The translations under genes and the position numbers were made by a program. DNA of 64,000 bases from Cryomorphaceae bacterium (GTDB lineage: Bacteria; Bacteroidota; Bacteroidia; Flavobacteriales; Schleiferiaceae): contig JAFMBM010000006.1 of assembly GCA_017858515.1 (NCBI GenBank), positions 1 to 64,000 on the forward strand, given 5' to 3'. Positions within the stretch are counted from its first letter, which is position 1. Each line of letters opens with the position of its first letter. Under the pieces are notes generated by a model. The model did not search any database and had not been told where the DNA came from. It was given only the letters and a program-made list of their open reading frames with translations. Below, piece by piece: positions 44,779 to 59,411 of the stretch.

Positions 44779-44809
44779 TTCATTTTGAATTGCGAAGTGC
44801 ACTAAAAGA

Positions 44810-44839
44810 GCAGAGAATTTAACATTCTCTGCTTATTTT
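44810..44839. terminator. Hairpin terminator between trxB and the convergent barrel gene
   Basis: GCAGAGAAT (44810-44818) and ATTCTCTGC (44824-44832) form a 9-bp stem with a 5-base loop, followed by TTATTTTAT. On the other side four A precede the stem at short distance, so it may also work for the minus-strand gene ending at 44838. Confidence 0.75.
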
Positions 44840-48918: not shown

Positions 48919-50223
48919 TTATGCCTGTATTGTATCTGACTTCTTGTGAAGCACTAAAAATTCTGTAAATGTTTTCTTTATAATGGAGATACAACTCATA
49001 AGTTGTTCTTCAGTAATTATGAGAGGCGGAGCGAGACGGATGATATTTCCATGAGTGGGCTTAGCTAATAAGCCATTATCTTTTAGGGCAATACAAATTC
49101 TCCAAGCAGTAGAACTACTTTCCACATCGTTAATGACAATGGCATTAAGCAAACCCTTTCCTCGTACTAATTGTATTAGATCACATTCTTCCTTGAAAGC
49201 ATTCATTTCACTCCTAAAAATCTCTCCTAATCTTCTAGCGTTTTGGGTGAGCTTTTCATCTACTACCACTTCCAATGCTTCCATAGCAATTTTCGATGCT
49301 AATGGATTTCCACCGAAAGTTGAACCATGCTGGCCAGGCTTGATAACCATCATTACTTCATTATCCGCTAAGACAGCAGAAACAGGATACATTCCACCTG
49401 AAAGCGCCTTACCTAGAATTAAAATATCTGGCTTTATGTATGACGAGCCACGTTCACATTTATTCTCGCAATTACAATTTCCACAAACCGCCAATAATCC
49501 ACCCGTTCTACCTATTCCTGTCTGAACTTCATCTGCAATAAAAAGTACATTTTTCTCTTTGCACAATCTTTGGGCTTCTGAAATAAAATCATCAGCCGGA
49601 ACCATTACCCCTGCTTCTCCTTGAATAGGCTCGACTAAAAATCCCGCCACATTTTTTCTTTCTAATGCTTTCGCTAGGGCATCAAGATCGTTATACGGAA
49701 TGTGATAAAATCCAGTTGGATAAGGTCCAAAACCATTTTTAGCATCTGGATCGGTGGAAAAGGAAACAATGGTGGTAGTTCTACCATGGAAATTATCGTT
49801 ACAAACGATTATTTCAGCTGTTCCAGAATCTAAACCTTTCTTCTCGTACGCCCATTTTCTACAAAGTTTTATGGCCGTTTCAACCGCTTCGGCTCCTGTG
49901 TTCATCGGCAGAACCCTATCAAAACCAAAATACTCGGTAATATATTTTGCATATGGGCCGAATACATCGTTGTGAAAGGCTCTTGAAGTAAGTGCAAGTG
50001 TACTCGCCTGTGACATCATAGCATGAACTAATCTTGGATGACTATGGCCTTGGTTTACAGCCGAATATGCGCTTAGAAAATCGAAATACTTTTTACCCTC
50101 TGGATCCCAAACGTAAACTCCTTCGCCTTTTGCAAGAACAACCGGGAGCGGATGATAGTTATGAGCACTATACTCGTGCTCTAAATGGATAGCATCGTGG
50201 GTAGAAATTGTCTGATCTGTCAT
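48919..50223 (-). CDS. rocD: Ornithine aminotransferase
   Basis: A PLP-dependent class III aminotransferase converting ornithine and 2-oxoglutarate to glutamate semialdehyde and glutamate in arginine breakdown. The Gly-rich N-terminal SAYSAVNQGHSHPRL, NTGAEAVETAIKLCRKWAY, cofactor-contacting FIADEVQTGIGRTG and the PLP Lys at 272 (LILGKALSGGMYP) are intact. Between these lies a Cys-rich stretch, CGNCNCENKC (247-256), absent from most relatives I recall outside this phylum. 434 residues. A thioredoxin-like gene follows directly. Confidence 0.94.
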   Translation of the reverse strand: MTDQTISTHDAIHLEHEYSAHNYHPLPVVLAKGEGVYVWDPEGKKYFDFLSAYSAVNQGHSHPRLVHAMMSQASTLALTSRAFHNDVFGPYAKYITEYFGFDRVLPMNTGAEAVETAIKLCRKWAYEKKGLDSGTAEIIVCNDNFHGRTTTIVSFSTDPDAKNGFGPYPTGFYHIPYNDLDALAKALERKNVAGFLVEPIQGEAGVMVPADDFISEAQRLCKEKNVLFIADEVQTGIGRTGGLLAVCGNCNCENKCERGSSYIKPDILILGKALSGGMYPVSAVLADNEVMMVIKPGQHGSTFGGNPLASKIAMEALEVVVDEKLTQNARRLGEIFRSEMNAFKEECDLIQLVRGKGLLNAIVINDVESSSTAWRICIALKDNGLLAKPTHGNIIRLAPPLIITEEQLMSCISIIKKTFTEFLVLHKKSDTIQA

Positions 50224-50287: not shown

Positions 50288-50938
50288 ATGATAGATTCTG
50301 AAGAAAAGCTAATTGAATATATACGGAAAGGTGAGTATGAGAATCAGGATTTCAAATTTGCAATTAATGATTCCAAGAAAATTGCCATTAGTCTATCTGC
50401 CTTTTCAAATACCTCAGGCGGTAGATTACTTATTGGAGTAAAGGACAATGGCCGTATTTCGGGAGTACGATCTGAGGAAGAAAAACACATGGTTGAAGGA
50501 GCCGCTGATCTATATTGCAGCCCTAGACCTGAAATCCAATTTATGGTTGTTTATACCTCTGATAATAAGGAGGTACTGATTGCAGAAATTGCTGAAAGCC
50601 ACTCTAAACCCATAAAGGCGATTACACCTGACGGAAGTTGGAAAGCCTATATACGAATGGGTGATGAGAATGCTTTAGCCAACGTTTTACATCTAAAAAA
50701 TTGGGAACGGGCTGCGGCTCTTAAAGGCAGCGAACGACCTTCTCACTTCACGGATAGTGATTTGAAGATCTTAAAACAGATAAGCGAACAATCTACTTGG
50801 ACAATCAATTCATTGGTAAAAAAAACAGGGCTTGCCCGTAGGCAAGCCCTGAATGTTTTGGGCAATTTCTTGCACTGGGATCTAATCGAACTGGTCCGAA
50901 TAGATTCTGAATTCAAAATCCGTATGAAGGCTGATTAA
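50288..50938 (+). CDS. AlbA_2 (Schlafen-like) domain protein with C-terminal helix-turn-helix
   Basis: 216 residues. The N-terminal ~125 residues are an AlbA_2/AAA_4-type domain: ENQDFKFAINDSKKIAISLSAFSNTSGGRLLIGVKDNGRISG is its typical course (residues ~18-58, with FKF, SAFSNTSGG and IGVKDNG as keys), and the segment RMGDENALA follows. The C-terminal part (~155-216) is a winged-helix-like DNA-binding region with TGLARRQALNVLGNFLHWDL as recognition helix. It is probably a regulator; target unknown. Its 3' half contains, on the opposite strand, the terminator of the rpoBC operon, and its last 4 bases overlap the DUF3467 gene. Confidence 0.8.
   Translation: MIDSEEKLIEYIRKGEYENQDFKFAINDSKKIAISLSAFSNTSGGRLLIGVKDNGRISGVRSEEEKHMVEGAADLYCSPRPEIQFMVVYTSDNKEVLIAEIAESHSKPIKAITPDGSWKAYIRMGDENALANVLHLKNWERAAALKGSERPSHFTDSDLKILKQISEQSTWTINSLVKKTGLARRQALNVLGNFLHWDLIELVRIDSEFKIRMKAD
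50818..50851 (-). terminator. Intrinsic terminator of the rpoBC-DUF3467 operon, inside the AlbA_2 gene
   Basis: CAGGGCTTGCC (50826-50836) and GGCAAGCCCTG (50841-50851) are perfectly complementary over 11 bp with a 4-base loop. On the minus strand the stem is followed by eight T (plus-strand A at 50818-50825). It lies 84-117 bases past the DUF3467 stop codon, the right place to end that transcript. On the plus strand no T-run follows, so the AlbA_2 transcript should read through. Confidence 0.85.
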
Positions 50939-51249
50939 GCCTGACCCGCAGGTCCTCCAAATGGAAGAGGAATAGGTTGTCCTTTTAGCTCTTCTATTTC
51001 GCCGTTGGTCTCTTCATATCTACGAATATTTTCCTTTAAAGCTAGAACAAGTCTTTTCATATGTTGCGGCGTCAAAATTATTCTTGACTTCACTCTTGCT
51101 TTTGGAATACCCGGCATCATTTGAACGAAATCCAAAACGAATTCTGTTGCAGAGTGATTGACCACTGCCAGATTCGAATAGATACCATCCGCAACTGCTT
51201 CGTTAATTTCAATATTCAGTTGTCCGTCGTTATTTTGATTTTCAGACAT
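50935..51249 (-). CDS. DUF3467 protein
   Basis: A 104-residue protein of a family found almost everywhere in Bacteroidota directly after rpoC. The core LNIEINEAVADGIYSNLAVVNHS and EFVLDFVQMMPGIPKARVKSRIILTPQHMKRL region (conserved FVLDF and P-A-V-SRIIL) is followed by an amphipathic helix and a Gly/Pro tail. Function unknown; constant linkage suggests a role with RNA polymerase or its assembly, by inference only. One base separates it from rpoC. Confidence 0.85.
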   Translation of the reverse strand: MSENQNNDGQLNIEINEAVADGIYSNLAVVNHSATEFVLDFVQMMPGIPKARVKSRIILTPQHMKRLVLALKENIRRYEETNGEIEELKGQPIPLPFGGPAGQA

Positions 51250-51250
51250 A

Positions 51251-54200
51251 TTAAACTCTTTCTTCTACTAATTCTGTTTTCTTGGCCGACAAGCGATCAA
51301 AATCATCCTGAGAACCAACAATATACTGATCGTATAATTTCAAACCAGTTCCTGCAGGTATTTTATGACCGACAATGACATTCTCCTTCAATCCTTCTAA
51401 CGTATCACGCTTAGCCGCAACCGCTGCTTCGTTCAACACTTTAGTAGTTTCTTGGAAAGATGCCGCAGAAATAAACGACTTGGTCTGCAATGAAGCTCGA
51501 GTTATACCTTGAAGAATCGGTGTAGCCGTGGCAGGGCGTGCATCTCTTGCAACAACCAGATTTTTATCAGATCGTCTCAGAAGTGAGTTCTCATCACGCA
51601 ATTTGCGGGTAGTGATTACCATTCCTGGTTTAAACGTATCCGAATCACCTGACTCTTCAACAATCTTCTTGTCGTAAATCCAATCATTCTGCGAGATAAA
51701 GTCATTCTTATGCACCAAATGACCTTCTAAGAATAAAGTATCGCCTGGGTCATTGATTTCAACTTTGCGCATCATCTGACGAACAATTACTTCAAAGTGT
51801 TTATCATTGATTTTCACACCTTGTAATCGGTACACCTCCTGAACTTCATTTACTAAGTATTCTTGCACCTTTGTTGGCCCTTGAATTGCTAAAATATCAC
51901 TGGGAGTAATTGCTCCATCCGATAAAGACATTCCAGCTTTAACAAAGTCATTCTCTTGAACAAGAATCTGTTTGCTCAGATTAATAAGGTATTTTTTCAG
52001 ATCGCCTGTTTTGGCTTCCACCATAATTTCGCGATTTCCTCTTTTGATTTTACCGTATGAAACAATTCCATCAATTTCAGATACAACTGCTGGGTTGGAT
52101 GGATTACGAGCTTCAAATAATTCAGTAACTCGAGGAAGACCGCCCGTAATATCACCCGCCTTTGCACTCTTACGAGGAATCTTAACAAGTACTTTACCTA
52201 CCTTAATCTTCTCACCATTCTCAACCTGTAAGTGGGCACCAACCGGTAGATTATATTGCTTCAAAGTAGCTCCAGACTTATCATTGATCAGGATGCTTGG
52301 AATCATTTTCTTATTCCTTGAATCAGATATTACCTTCTCTTGGAAGCCTGTCTGTTCATCAATTTCAACCCTATAAGTGAAACCTTGCTCTATATCTTCA
52401 AAAGAAATAACACCTGAAGTCTCACTGATAATAACAGCATTATAAGGATCCCAATCGCAGATAACTTCACCCTTCTTCACCTTAGCTTTTTCTGCAACTC
52501 TCATTGTAGCACCATAAGGAATAACAGAGGTAGCAAGGTTAATACCTGTTTTCTCATCAACTAGACGTAGTTCACCCGTTCTGCCAATTACGATATCAAC
52601 TAAGTTTCCTTCGGCATCTTCACTTTGCACCGTGCGCAACTCATCTACTTCAATGATTCCATCATACTTGGCGATCATTTTAGATTCTTCAGCCACGTTT
52701 CCAGCGGTACCTCCCACGTGGAAAGTTCTCAAAGTAAGCTGTGTTCCAGGCTCTCCAATAGATTGTGCCGCAATTACTCCAACGGCTTCACCCATCTGAA
52801 CAAGTTGGCCGGAAGCTAAGTTCCTTCCGTAACACTTTGCACAGATACCACGCTTAGATTCGCAGGTTAAGGCAGAGCGAACTTCCACCGAATCAATCGG
52901 TGATTCTTCAATGGCATTACCCATTGCTTCATTAATTAACTCTCCTGACCTCACAATTAAATCAGAAGTAAGCGGATTGTAAACATCGTGTAGAGAAACT
53001 CTACCAATGATACGATCCTTTAATGGTTCAACTGTTTCTTCATTCTTCTTTAAAGCACTCACATCTAGACCTCTCAAGGTTCCGCAATCCTCTTCATTGA
53101 TGATTACATCCTGAGCCACATCCACTAGGCGGCGAGTCAAATAACCTGCATCTGCCGTTTTCAAGGCAGTATCGGCAAGCCCTTTACGCGCTCCGTGAGT
53201 AGAAATAAAGTACTCAAGAATAGACAGTCCTTCTTTAAAGTTCGAAATAATCGGGTTTTCGATGATTTCTCCACCACCTGAACCTGATTTTTGTGGCTTG
53301 GCCATAAGACCACGCATTCCTGAGAGCTGACGGATCTGTTCTTTCGAACCACGAGCCCCAGAATCTAACATCATATAGATCGGGTTAAAGCCTTGATCAT
53401 CTGAGCTCAAATAATACATTGCCCTTTCCGTCAAACGTGCGTTAGTATTCGTCCAGACGTCAATTACCTGATTATAACGCTCATTATTAGTGATGAGACC
53501 CATATTATAGCTTGCAAGAATGTTCTCGATTTGATCGTTTGCATCCTTAATAAGATCGTCCTTTTCTTGGGGGATAATAATGTTTTCTAGAGAAAAAGAA
53601 AGTCCACCTCGGAAGGCGGTTCTAAATCCTAGATTCTTCATGTCATCCAAGAACTTAGCCGTAGTTGCAATATTGGTCTTTTTCAGAATGTCTGAAATGA
53701 TCTCACGCAAGGCCTTCTTGGTTAGAATGCTATCTATAAATCCTACAGTCTCTGGAACAACATCGTTGAATAATACTCTTCCAACAGTAGTTTCAATTAA
53801 GCGGATCACTATTCCACCATTCTCTTCAACTCTGTGGCGAACCTTAATTATGGCATGTAGATCGACTTTCTTCTCGTTGAAAGCAATCACTACCTCTTCA
53901 GGAGAATAGAAGATCATTCCCTCTCCTTTCATTGGCTTTTCAGGAGTACTTCTTCTAGACTTAGTCATATAATACAATCCCAATACCATGTCTTGAGATG
54001 GAACTGTAATAGGCGAACCATTTGCAGGGTTAAGGATGTTGTGAGAAGCAAGCATTAAAACTTGAGCTTCTAAGATAGCAGCAGGTCCTAAAGGAAGGTG
54101 AACTGCCATCTGGTCTCCGTCGAAGTCGGCATTGAATGCAGTACAAACAAGCGGATGCAACTGAATCGCTTTACCTTCAATCAATTTTGGTTGGAAGGCT

Positions 54201-55564
54201 TGGATTCCCAATCTATGCAAAGTTGGAGCTCTATTCAATAGAACGGGGTGTCCTTTCATAACATTTTCAAGGATATCCCAAACAACAGGCTCTCTCTTGT
54301 CAATTATTTTCTTAGCAGATTTAACCGTTTTAACAATTCCTCTTTCGATCAATTTGCGAATTACGAAGGGTTTGAAAAGTTCAGCTGCCATATTCTTAGG
54401 TAAACCACATTCGTGCAGGTACAATTCTGGACCTACTACAATGACAGAACGCGCAGAATAGTCAACACGTTTACCCAAAAGGTTCTGGCGGAATCGTCCT
54501 TGTTTACCTTTTAAGCTATCTGAAAGTGATTTAAGAGGGCGATTTGACTCGGTCTTAACTGCACTCGCCTTCCGTGTATTATCGAAAAGAGAATCGACTG
54601 CCTCTTGAAGCATCCTTTTCTCATTTCTTAAAATAACTTCAGGCGCTTTAATTTCCAATAAACGTTTTAAGCGGTTATTACGGATAATTACACGGCGATA
54701 CAAATCATTTAAATCCGAAGTAGCAAAGCGTCCTCCATCCAATGGAACTAATGGTCTCAGTTCAGGTGGGATAACAGGTACAATCTTCATTACCATCCAC
54801 TCCGGCTTATTTACAATACGCTCATTAGCGTCTCTAAAAGCTTCAACAACTTGAAGACGCTTTAAAGCCTCTTGCTTTCTTTGCTGGCTAGTTTCTGTAT
54901 TGGCCTTATGACGTAACTCATAACTCAATTCATCCAGATTCAATTTCCCTAAAAGGCCTATTAAAGCCTCACCACCCATTTTGGCGATGAATTTATTTGG
55001 GTCTGAATCTTCTAAATAATGATTGTCTTGCGGAATACGATCTAAAATCTCCAAATACTCTTCTTCTGTAAGGAAGTCCAAAAATTGGAGTGGGGCACCT
55101 TCGATAGAAGTAGCTATTCCGCCTTGTATAACAACATAGCGCTCGTAATAAATTACCATATCCAATTTCTTGGATGGCAATCCTAGAAGGTAACCAATTT
55201 TATTCGGTAAAGAGCGGAAGTACCAAATATGTGCAACTGGAACTACCAAATTGATATGTCCGATACGCTCTCTTCGAACCTTCTTTTCTGTAACTTCTAC
55301 ACCACAGCGGTCGCAAACAATTCCCTTGTAACGGATTCGCTTGTACTTTCCACAAAAACATTCATAATCCTTTACAGGGCCAAAAATTCGCTCACAAAAC
55401 AAGCCATCACGCTCGGGTTTATGAGTACGATAGTTGATGGTTTCAGGTTTCAAAACCTCACCACTAGATTTTGCCAAGATATCCTCCGGAGAAGAAAGGC
55501 TAATAGTGATGGAGCTGAATCCTCCTGTAGTGCTTGTCGTTTTATCGTTCGTTTTCAATGCCAT
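51251..55564 (-). CDS. rpoC: RNA polymerase beta' subunit
   Basis: The largest polymerase subunit, carrying the catalytic Mg site. The N-terminal zinc ribbon has Cys at 69, 71, 84 and 87. The catalytic loop [12 protein letters not shown] is intact, as is the trigger-loop region ([10 protein letters not shown]...) and a second zinc site within [13 protein letters not shown]. 1437 residues, usual for Bacteroidota. It follows rpoB by 37 bases. Confidence 0.98.
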
Positions 55565-55601: not shown

Positions 55602-58600
55602 TTATTCTAAAGTCACCTTAAGACCTAATCCTTGTAATTCGTGCAACAATACATTGAACGATTCTGGAATTCCAGGTTCTGGTAAGGGTTCTCCCTTAAC
55701 AATAGACTCATATGTCTTAGCTCTTCCAACTACATCATCCGATTTAACAGTAAGAAGTTCTCTCAGGATATTTGAAGCACCAAATGCCTCAATTGCCCAT
55801 ACTTCCATCTCTCCAAATCGCTGACCTCCAAATTGTGCTTTACCACCTAAAGGTTGCTGAGTAATTAAACTGTAGGGACCAATAGATCTTGCGTGCATCT
55901 TATCGTCAACCATATGTCCTAATTTCAGCATATAAATGATACCAACCGTTGCTGGCTGATCGAAGCGTTCACCCGTTCCTCCATCATACAAGAAGGTGTG
56001 GCCATATCTTGGTATTCCTGCTTGATCTGTGTAACTGTTGATCTCTTCAATACTCGCTCCATCAAAAATGGGTGTCGCAAACTTTTTACCCAGTTTCTTA
56101 CCAGCCCAACCTAGAACAGTTTCATAGATCTGACCGATGTTCATACGAGAAGGCACACCAAGTGGATTCAATACGATATCAACTGGAGTTCCGTCTTCAA
56201 GGAAAGGCATGTCTTCATCACGAACAATACGTGCAACAATACCCTTGTTTCCATGGCGTCCTGCCATTTTATCCCCTACTTTAAGCTTACGCTTTTGTGC
56301 AATGTACACTTTAGCTAACTTGATGATACCTGCTGGCAGTTCATCGCCCACGCTAATCGTGAACATCTTACGTTTATGAACCCCGGTAATATCGCTAACC
56401 TTGATCTTGTAATTATGGATCAACTGTTGGATTAAACGATTCTTTTCCTCATCTGTAGTCCATACCCCACCAGATAAACGAGTATAATCGTCAATTCCAT
56501 TTAAAATTTTCTGAGTGAATTTGGTTCCCTTTGGAATTACAATTTCATTCAAATCATTCGAAACACCCTGACATGTTTTACCTACTACCAAGAGATTCAA
56601 CTTCTCGAGGAATCGAGTCCGCAATGTTTCCATTTGCATTCCGTGCTCTTGAGCCAGAATCTCCAACTCTTCCTTATCCTTTCCACGTTGACGCTTATCT
56701 TTAATACTACGTGCGAAAAGTTTCTTGTCTATTACAACTCCATACAAAGAAGGACTTGCCTTCAAGGAAGCATCTTTAACATCACCTGCCTTATCTCCGA
56801 AGATGGCGCGAAGAAGTTTTTCCTCTGGGGTTGGATCACTTTCTCCTTTCGGAGTAATCTTTCCGATAAGAATATCTCCCGGCTTGATTTCAGCTCCTAC
56901 GCGAATAATTCCATTTTCATCTAGATCACGAGTCGCCTCCTCACTAACATTCGGTATATCTGGAGTTAATTCCTCCATACCCAACTTAGTATCTCTAACT
57001 TCAAGAGTGTATTCATCTACGTGAATAGATGTGAAAATATCCTCGCGAGCAACTCTTTCAGAAATCACGATAGCATCTTCAAAATTATACCCCTTCCAAG
57101 GCATAAACGAAACCAATAAGTTACGTCCTAAGGCAAGCTCACCTTTTTCCGTTCCGTATCCTTCGCACAAAACATCACCAGGCTGAACGCGTTGCCCAGT
57201 CTTAACAATTGGCTTTATATTTATAGTAGTACCCTGGTTCGTTTTTCTGAATTTGATAAGATTATAGGTCTTATACTCATCTTCAAAACTGACCAATTCC
57301 TCATCTTCACTTCGATCGTACTTAACAATAATCTCCTTTGCATCTACAAATACAACAACGCCACTTCCTTCTGCATCAAACAAAACACGACTGTCGCGCG
57401 CTACCTGCTTCTCAAGACCAGTGCCAACAATCGGAGCTTCAGGACGAAGTAGAGGCACCGCTTGGCGCATCATATTCGATCCCATCAGTGCACGGTTGGC
57501 ATCATCGTGTTCTAAGAAAGGGATAAGGGAAGCAGAAATAGACGCAATCTGGTTAGGAGCTACGTCCATGTACTGAACACTAGTTGGCTCAACGAGCGGG
57601 AAGTCACCTTCATCGCGCGCTTTTACTCGTGGATTAAGAAAATTACCTTGATCATCTATTGGTGCATTTGCCTGGGCAATTACCATATTCTCCTCTTCCT
57701 CTGCGCTTAAAAATGCGGGAGGTGAATCCACTTTCACAATTCCATTCTCAACAACACGGTATGGAGTCTCTATAAAACCCATTCGATTTACTCGAGAAAA
57801 CACACACATAGACGAAATAAGTCCAATGTTCGGTCCTTCAGGAGTTTCAATTGGACAAAGTCTTCCATAATGGGTATAGTGTACGTCACGAACCTCAAAA
57901 CCCGCTCTTTCACGTGACAATCCACCGGGGCCTAGGGCAGACATTCTTCTCTTGTGGGTAATTTCAGCCAACGGATTCGTTTGATCCATAAACTGACTTA
58001 GCTGATTCGTTCCAAAGAATGAATTAATTACCGAAGAAAGCGTTTTCGCATTTATAAGATCAATTGGTGTAAACACCTCATTGTCTCTCACATTCATCCT
58101 TTCACGAATGGTACGAGCCATTCTTGACAGTCCCACTCCAAATTGGTTAGCCAATTGTTCACCAACCGTTCTTACACGACGATTACTTAGGTGGTCAATA
58201 TCATCAACTTCAGCTTTTGAATTTATCAACTCAATGAGATACTTGATAATTCGGATGATATCTTCTTTTGTTAAAACTTGAACCTCCATACCCAGGTCAA
58301 GGCCTAGTTTCTTGTTCAGCCTATATCTTCCAACCTCACCTAAATTGTATCTTGTTTCTGAGAAAAACAACTTCTCGATAATACCTCTAGCCGTTTCTTC
58401 ATCGGGCGGTTCGGCATTTCTAAGTTGTCTATAGACATGCTCTACAGCTTCTTTCTCAGAATTGGTAGGATCCTTTTGTAATGTATTGTAGATAATAGAA
58501 TTGTCTGCAGACTCAATATCTTCTCTGTGTAAAAGTACAGTTGGAACATCTGCATCAATAATCTCATCTATATGCTCTTTCTCTAGAACAGTATCCCTGT

Positions 58601-59411
58601 CGAGAATGACCTCATTTCGTTCGATAGATACCACCTCTCCAGTATCCTCATCAACGAAATCTTCGATCCAAGTTTTAAGTACTCTTGCAGCAAGTCTTCT
58701 GCCGAGAATTTTCTTCAGCGCCGTTTTGCTAACCTTCACTTCCTCGGCAAGATCAAATATCTCTAGGATATCCTTGTCTCTCTCATAACCAATTGCACGT
58801 AGAAGTGTTGTTACTGGTAGCTTCTTCTTTCTATCGATGTACGCATACATAACATTATTGATGTCTGTAGCGAATTCTATCCATGAACCTTTGAAAGGAA
58901 TAATTCGAGCACTATATAGCTTGGTACCGTTAGCATGGTAACTCTGACCAAAGAAAACTCCTGGAGAACGGTGCAACTGCGAAACCACAACTCGCTCCGC
59001 CCCATTAATGATAAAAGTACCTCTGGGCGACATATATGGGATTGTTCCCAAATACACATCTTGAACTATCGTTTCAAAATCCTCATGTTCAGGATCTGTA
59101 CAATATAGCTTTAGACGAGCTTTTAATGGAAGGCTGTAAGTCAATCCCCTTTCAATACACTCTTGTTCAGAGTAGCGAGGTGGATCGACGAAATAATCTA
59201 TAAATTCTAAAACAAACTGATTACGTGCGTCTGTAATTGGAAAATTCTCAGAAAATGTACGGTAAAGACCTTCGTCTTTCCTATCATCTGGTTTAGTTTC
59301 TAATTGGAAGAAATCCTTAAAAGATCTCAGCTGGATATCCATAAAGTCAGGATAATCCAATTGAGATTTTATAGACGCGAAAGAAATACGGTGGGAAGAA
59401 GTAGTCGCCAA
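55602..59411 (-). CDS. rpoB: RNA polymerase beta subunit
   Basis: The second large polymerase subunit and rifampicin target. The rif-region segment [31 protein letters not shown] is standard, with Asp, His, Arg and Ser at the usual resistance positions (key parts QFMDQTNP and [13 protein letters not shown]), so the sequence looks rifampicin-sensitive. [12 protein letters not shown] and the C-terminal [12 protein letters not shown]-like part are present. 1269 residues. A 98-base gap with a possible hairpin separates it from rplL. Confidence 0.98.

Follow-up and report, generated by a model that had tools for sequence, protein, structure and literature searches.

Where does an RNA polymerase operon end its transcript when its last gene meets a convergent gene stop codon against stop codon, with no intergenic DNA between them? 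The question is raised by a 64,000-nucleotide (nt) stretch of contig JAFMBM010000006.1 from a Cryomorphaceae bacterium (hereafter the window), in which a DUF3467 gene placed directly after rpoC on the minus strand faces a plus-strand gene coding for an AlbA_2 protein. Within the AlbA_2 coding sequence, the minus strand carries a hairpin followed by an uninterrupted run of T. Judged by its sequence, this element is probably where the rpoB-rpoC-DUF3467 transcript ends by intrinsic (Rho-independent) termination, a reading to which we give a probability of about 0.85.

Hairpin and U-tract beyond DUF3467

Read 5′ to 3′ on the minus strand (50851-50818), the element is CAGGGCTTGCC-TACG-GGCAAGCCCTG-TTTTTTTT. 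The 11 stem pairs are all Watson-Crick, eight of them G-C, the TACG loop has 4 nt, and the tract directly 3′ of the stem is T at 8 of 8 positions. These are the features of an intrinsic terminator, namely a stable GC-rich hairpin with a short loop (-21.4 kcal/mol) and an adjoining U-tract, placed downstream of a gene of the same strand and past the terminating ribosome. The initial annotation had described a perfect 11-base-pair (bp) stem with a 4-base loop and eight T on the minus strand, lying beyond rpoC and DUF3467 and fully within the convergent AlbA_2 coding sequence, and the sequence confirmed this description: the hairpin occupies 83-108 nt after the DUF3467 stop, 87 nt inside the AlbA_2 gene. 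No terminator nearer to the DUF3467 stop was found in the window.

The in silico folding of the element as RNA gave -25.4 kcal/mol (z -4.8), and 0 of 200 shuffled sequences folded as well. The stem pairs presented probabilities of 0.97-1.0 within the entire predicted 117-nt 3′ untranslated region, whose fold is dominated by this stem. Among 59 intergenic terminator candidates from 1.03 megabases (Mb) of the same genome, the median hairpin energy was -18.1 kcal/mol, weaker than that of this hairpin, and only 5% of the candidates carried a full 8/8 T tail. The search of Rfam revealed no known RNA family match at the element. On the plus strand, the side of the stem shows the tail AATGTTTT / AATGTTTTGG, with no U-tract directly after the plus-strand stem, so that the element at 50818-50851 does not have the U-tract on each of the two strands that defines a bidirectional terminator.

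According to the proposed mechanism, once ribosomes had left at the DUF3467 stop, an untranslated RNA of 83 nt would be made, the GC-rich hairpin would fold, and RNA polymerase would be released at the U8 tract near 50818, so that the rpoBC-DUF3467 transcript is predicted to end at about 50818-50820. The action is expected to be one-way, the AlbA_2 message not being ended by the element because its strand has no U-tract directly following the stem. Under normal termination, the polymerase transcript is predicted to run antisense to the AlbA_2 open reading frame (ORF) over about 121 nt, so that antisense overlap needs no read-through. Judging from this predicted end, the initial annotation, which derived antisense RNA from read-through, overlooked the overlap left by normal termination.

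Codon choice and the encoded residues

The stem is written in codons 180-188 of the AlbA_2 gene (ACA GGG CTT GCC CGT AGG CAA GCC CTG), which encode TGLARRQAL, and the T/S-G-L-x-R-R-x-A-L residues are typical of the family. The codons themselves are unusual: GGG is the rarest of 4 Gly codons in this genome, CTG the rarest of 6 Leu codons, and AGG the fifth of 6 Arg codons. When the protein was kept fixed and synonymous codons were drawn by the genome's own usage, all 11 pairs were recovered in 2 of 200,000 draws (P ~1e-5). A genome baseline was built from 686 genes, obtained by simple ORF calling on 1.03 Mb of genome in pieces. In this set, antisense terminators with at least 10 bp, 6 G-C pairs and 6 T were observed in 3 genes, against a mean of 0.105 expected from synonymous resampling, one of the three (C34) probably being an ORF with its start called too far upstream. 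At the level of at least 11 bp, 7 G-C pairs and 7 T, the only case observed was this element, and no such case appeared in 200 resamplings. Such a codon choice is improbable without selection on the DNA, as expected of dual coding, and a chance origin of the element is unlikely.

The most durable of the alternatives is nevertheless a chance inverted repeat, in which hairpin and A-run would be by-products of the codon usage for KKTGLARRQAL and would have no transcriptional role. The A-run is indeed cheap, the KK codons giving at least seven A in 52% of resamplings, and the relatives that have this gene pair do not share the stem. Against these points stand the probability of 1e-5 for such a stem when the protein is kept fixed, the lack of any equally strong case in the 200 genome resamplings, and a strand and site that match the place where the polymerase operon has no nearer terminator; we therefore consider this explanation improbable. 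A repeat or mobile hairpin was rejected as well: when up to 3 mismatches are allowed, the genome has only one further match to the stem, itself an ordinary intergenic terminator (G000:C29:36129, G000 being the window's genome), which is apparently two-way, with nearly the same stem AGGGCTTCCCCATGGGGAAGCCCT flanked by A and T runs.

The AlbA_2 gene product matched SLFN_AlbA_2 (PF04326, E 1.8e-17). An AlphaFold model built on a 27-sequence alignment (mean pLDDT 94) presented helices at 156-167, 173-180 and 184-196 and a two-stranded wing at 200-205 and 208-213, and by this model the protein is an AlbA_2 domain with a C-terminal winged helix-turn-helix fold. The initial annotation had placed residues 180-188 in the recognition helix. 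The residues and their sequence were correct, and the model bears out the placement in part: they start with the final residue of helix 2 (173-180), run through the turn (181-183) and end five residues into the recognition helix (184-196). The closest match in the PDB was 3lmm (206 columns, E 1e-6), followed by Schlafen proteins. By their entry titles, the Schlafen relatives deposited in the PDB act on RNA; DNA binding and transcriptional regulation by the AlbA_2 protein are predicted from its fold.

The winged-helix end was found in all aligned AlbA_2 homologues of the taxonomic family. Because it is present whether or not rpoC adjoins, the AlbA_2 coding sequence appears older than the terminator. 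The converse, a coding sequence grown over an old intergenic terminator, was rejected, since homologues not beside rpoC have the full-length winged-helix end. The terminator would thus have arisen in pre-existing coding sequence once the intergenic spacer was lost, and would lie inside AlbA_2 because this gene and DUF3467 overlap at their stop codons. It is built from an unusual synonymous codon set for ordinary family residues, probably placed there by selection.

The locus and its counterparts in related genomes

The coordinates of the features are collected in Table 1. In the order of transcription, the minus-strand genes are tuf, a transfer RNA gene, secE, nusG, rplK, rplA, rplJ, rplL, rpoB, rpoC and DUF3467. 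Gene names in this polymerase cluster were assigned from recognisable sequence, and only DUF3467 was identified by family search. The ORF list gives rpoB a TTG start codon.

Table 1. Features of the predicted terminator locus in the window
Feature	Positions	Strand	Basis
Predicted terminator hairpin, perfect 11-bp stem, TACG loop	50826..50851	-	sequence, fold
T8 (U-tract) of the predicted terminator	50818..50825	-	sequence
Gene for a 216-amino-acid AlbA_2 (Schlafen core) protein that ends in a winged helix	50288..50938	+	Pfam, alignment, AlphaFold model, structure match
83-nt stretch from DUF3467 stop to hairpin, running antisense to the 3′ end of the AlbA_2 coding sequence	50852..50934	-	sequence, fold
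TTAA shared by the overlapping stop codons of the convergent genes, leaving no spacer	50935..50938	.	sequence, ORF list
DUF3467 gene, last of the transcript	50935..51249	-	PF11950, E 1.4e-31
rpoC	51251..55564	-	sequence recognisable as RNA polymerase beta′
rpoB	55602..59411	-	sequence recognisable as RNA polymerase beta

Two further observations were made in the window. An ornithine-aminotransferase-like gene at 48919-50223 (minus strand) carries a cysteine-rich stretch, CGNCNCENKCER, before the presumed cofactor lysine region. At 44808-44834, an ordinary two-way terminator with a 10-11 bp stem lies between convergent thioredoxin-reductase-like and outer-membrane-protein-like genes.

The locus was compared across 88 genomes of the same taxonomic family. 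In 27 of the 40 loci that have no AlbA_2 neighbour and enough downstream sequence, a terminator of at least 10 bp starts 1-48 nt after the DUF3467 stop. Taken together, this family pattern, the stem with its T8 tract and the codon improbability make it very probable that, as the initial annotation held, the rpoBC operon terminator lies inside the winged helix-turn-helix region of the opposing gene.

Several points weigh against this reading. The 83-nt spacing in the window exceeds the usual 1-48 nt. AlbA_2 is convergent with DUF3467 in four genomes, the window's, G033, G036 and G087. G087 keeps an intergenic terminator of 13 bp that spans 49-78 nt past the DUF3467 stop and whose T-run adjoins the stop codon of AlbA_2, and G033 and G036, which belong to the same genus, presented no convincing terminator within 450 nt after DUF3467. 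The operon can therefore do without the element. Moreover, the resampling null takes no account of dinucleotide context across codon boundaries, and it was applied to a case already noticed.

In G033 and G036, the convergent stop codons abut at TGATCA (junctions L062 and L063), and these genomes may end the polymerase operon by Rho or another route. A G033 hairpin (7 bp, 3 G-C, 72-89 nt after the stop) was rejected as a homologous element, being built from other codons (KALQRL) and at background level. Among the relatives seen, the terminator within coding sequence is particular to the window's lineage.

The initial annotation had also claimed that evolution could not alter the DNA-binding helix and the terminator strength separately, and this is not supported. 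A single base of the stem can be changed in 66 ways; 21 of these changes are synonymous, and 17 of the 21 disrupt a pair. A comparable antisense terminator, at the level of 8 bp, 4 G-C pairs and 6 T, was found in none of the 109 other homologue loci scanned (a few of which are one gene counted twice), and the relatives with the same gene pair are without it. The sequences thus indicate that, as regards the protein, the two functions can largely change independently, and that a constraint, if any, falls on codon choice rather than on the protein.

The stem is absent in relatives whose AlbA_2 proteins (G033, G036 and G087) are about 49% identical to the window's, and at this identity the absence says nothing on constraint over shorter times. 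The sole close relative, G034 (97% identical in the C-terminal part of rpoC, 86% in rocD), has an assembly gap across the region, its contigs ending in rocD and rpoC. Given close-relative sequence across it, the locus offers a simple test of synonymous constraint. In G035, rocD adjoins AlbA_2, and DUF3467, followed by a 14-bp terminator of its own, is found on a separate contig; downstream of AlbA_2 in this genome (L006:2230-2500), a tandem-like, G-rich repeat (about 60-70 bases; TTTCCCGCAGATTTCGCAGATTTTCGCGGATGG...) was observed. A scan of genome contigs with the single AlbA_2 protein gave no matches. The scan with the alignment gave 80 loci, one of them with DUF3467 adjoining (L142, apparently the same gene as in G033).

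It seems improbable that the nine codons are held by selection as a lineage-specific dual code, through synonymous or compensatory changes, with read-through coupling AlbA_2 expression to RNA polymerase synthesis. Slightly less probable still is a regulatory leaky terminator, whose variable read-through would send antisense RNA or a colliding polymerase into AlbA_2 and tie its level to rpoBC in an excludon-like manner. The tail-to-tail overlap is certain from the sequence, amounting to ~121 nt even with normal termination, and a precedent exists in Staphylococcus aureus, where read-through of an intrinsic terminator was reported to make antisense RNA to lexA (PMC8745188). Conversely, the strong stem and full U8 tract suggest efficient termination, the arrangement is not conserved, and a regulation of rpoBC by AlbA_2, or a response of AlbA_2 to it, is hypothetical. 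Very improbable is a role of the hairpin in the AlbA_2 messenger RNA, in its stability or in plus-strand termination, for even though a perfect hairpin forms on both strands, the plus-strand tail AATGTTTTGG lacks a U-tract directly after the stem, ribosomes would translate through the hairpin, and termination there would cut off the C-terminal 28 residues, a part retained throughout the family.

Comparison with known convergent terminators

The intrinsic terminator proposed for the rpoB-rpoC-DUF3467 transcript would stand in a crowded genome, in which 55 of 111 convergent gene pairs (1.03 Mb) are at most 20 bases apart or overlap. A second terminator inside a convergent coding end was found in the same genome (G000:C8:9280-9309, within L089:9253-9309), between a bacilliredoxin-like gene and a TrhO-type rhodanese gene, 23 nt after the stop of the former and 27 nt inside the coding end of the latter. 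This terminator is weaker than the window element: several pairs of its 13-bp stem are G-U, and its T tail is not continuous. The window element would show how a strong core-operon terminator fits inside a conserved protein motif with the protein unchanged, and how transcript ends can be retained in compact genomes once their intergenic space has gone.

Termination sites often lie inside the coding sequence of a neighbouring gene (review PMC7154746). The overlapping convergent 3′ ends described there share with our case the tail-to-tail overlap with antisense RNA, whereas here a full strong hairpin and U8 tract are built from codons of the turn and the start of the recognition helix, not from spacer. 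Term-seq of Zymomonas mobilis revealed an average stem of ~11 bp and a loop of ~4 nt (PMC7566282). The bidirectional terminators of convergent genes in E. coli and Z. mobilis are alike in serving convergent genes and in these dimensions; in contrast, the window element is predicted to be one-way, with T8 on the minus strand only, and lies within coding sequence. Similarly, the S. aureus sbrB terminator, whose read-through gives the antisense RNA to lexA mentioned above, is an intrinsic terminator facing another gene with possible read-through antisense RNA; by the title of that study, sbrB has natural mispairings whereas the window stem is perfect, and read-through here is hypothetical. The element adds a tidy case to a type of arrangement already known and is not a new mechanism.
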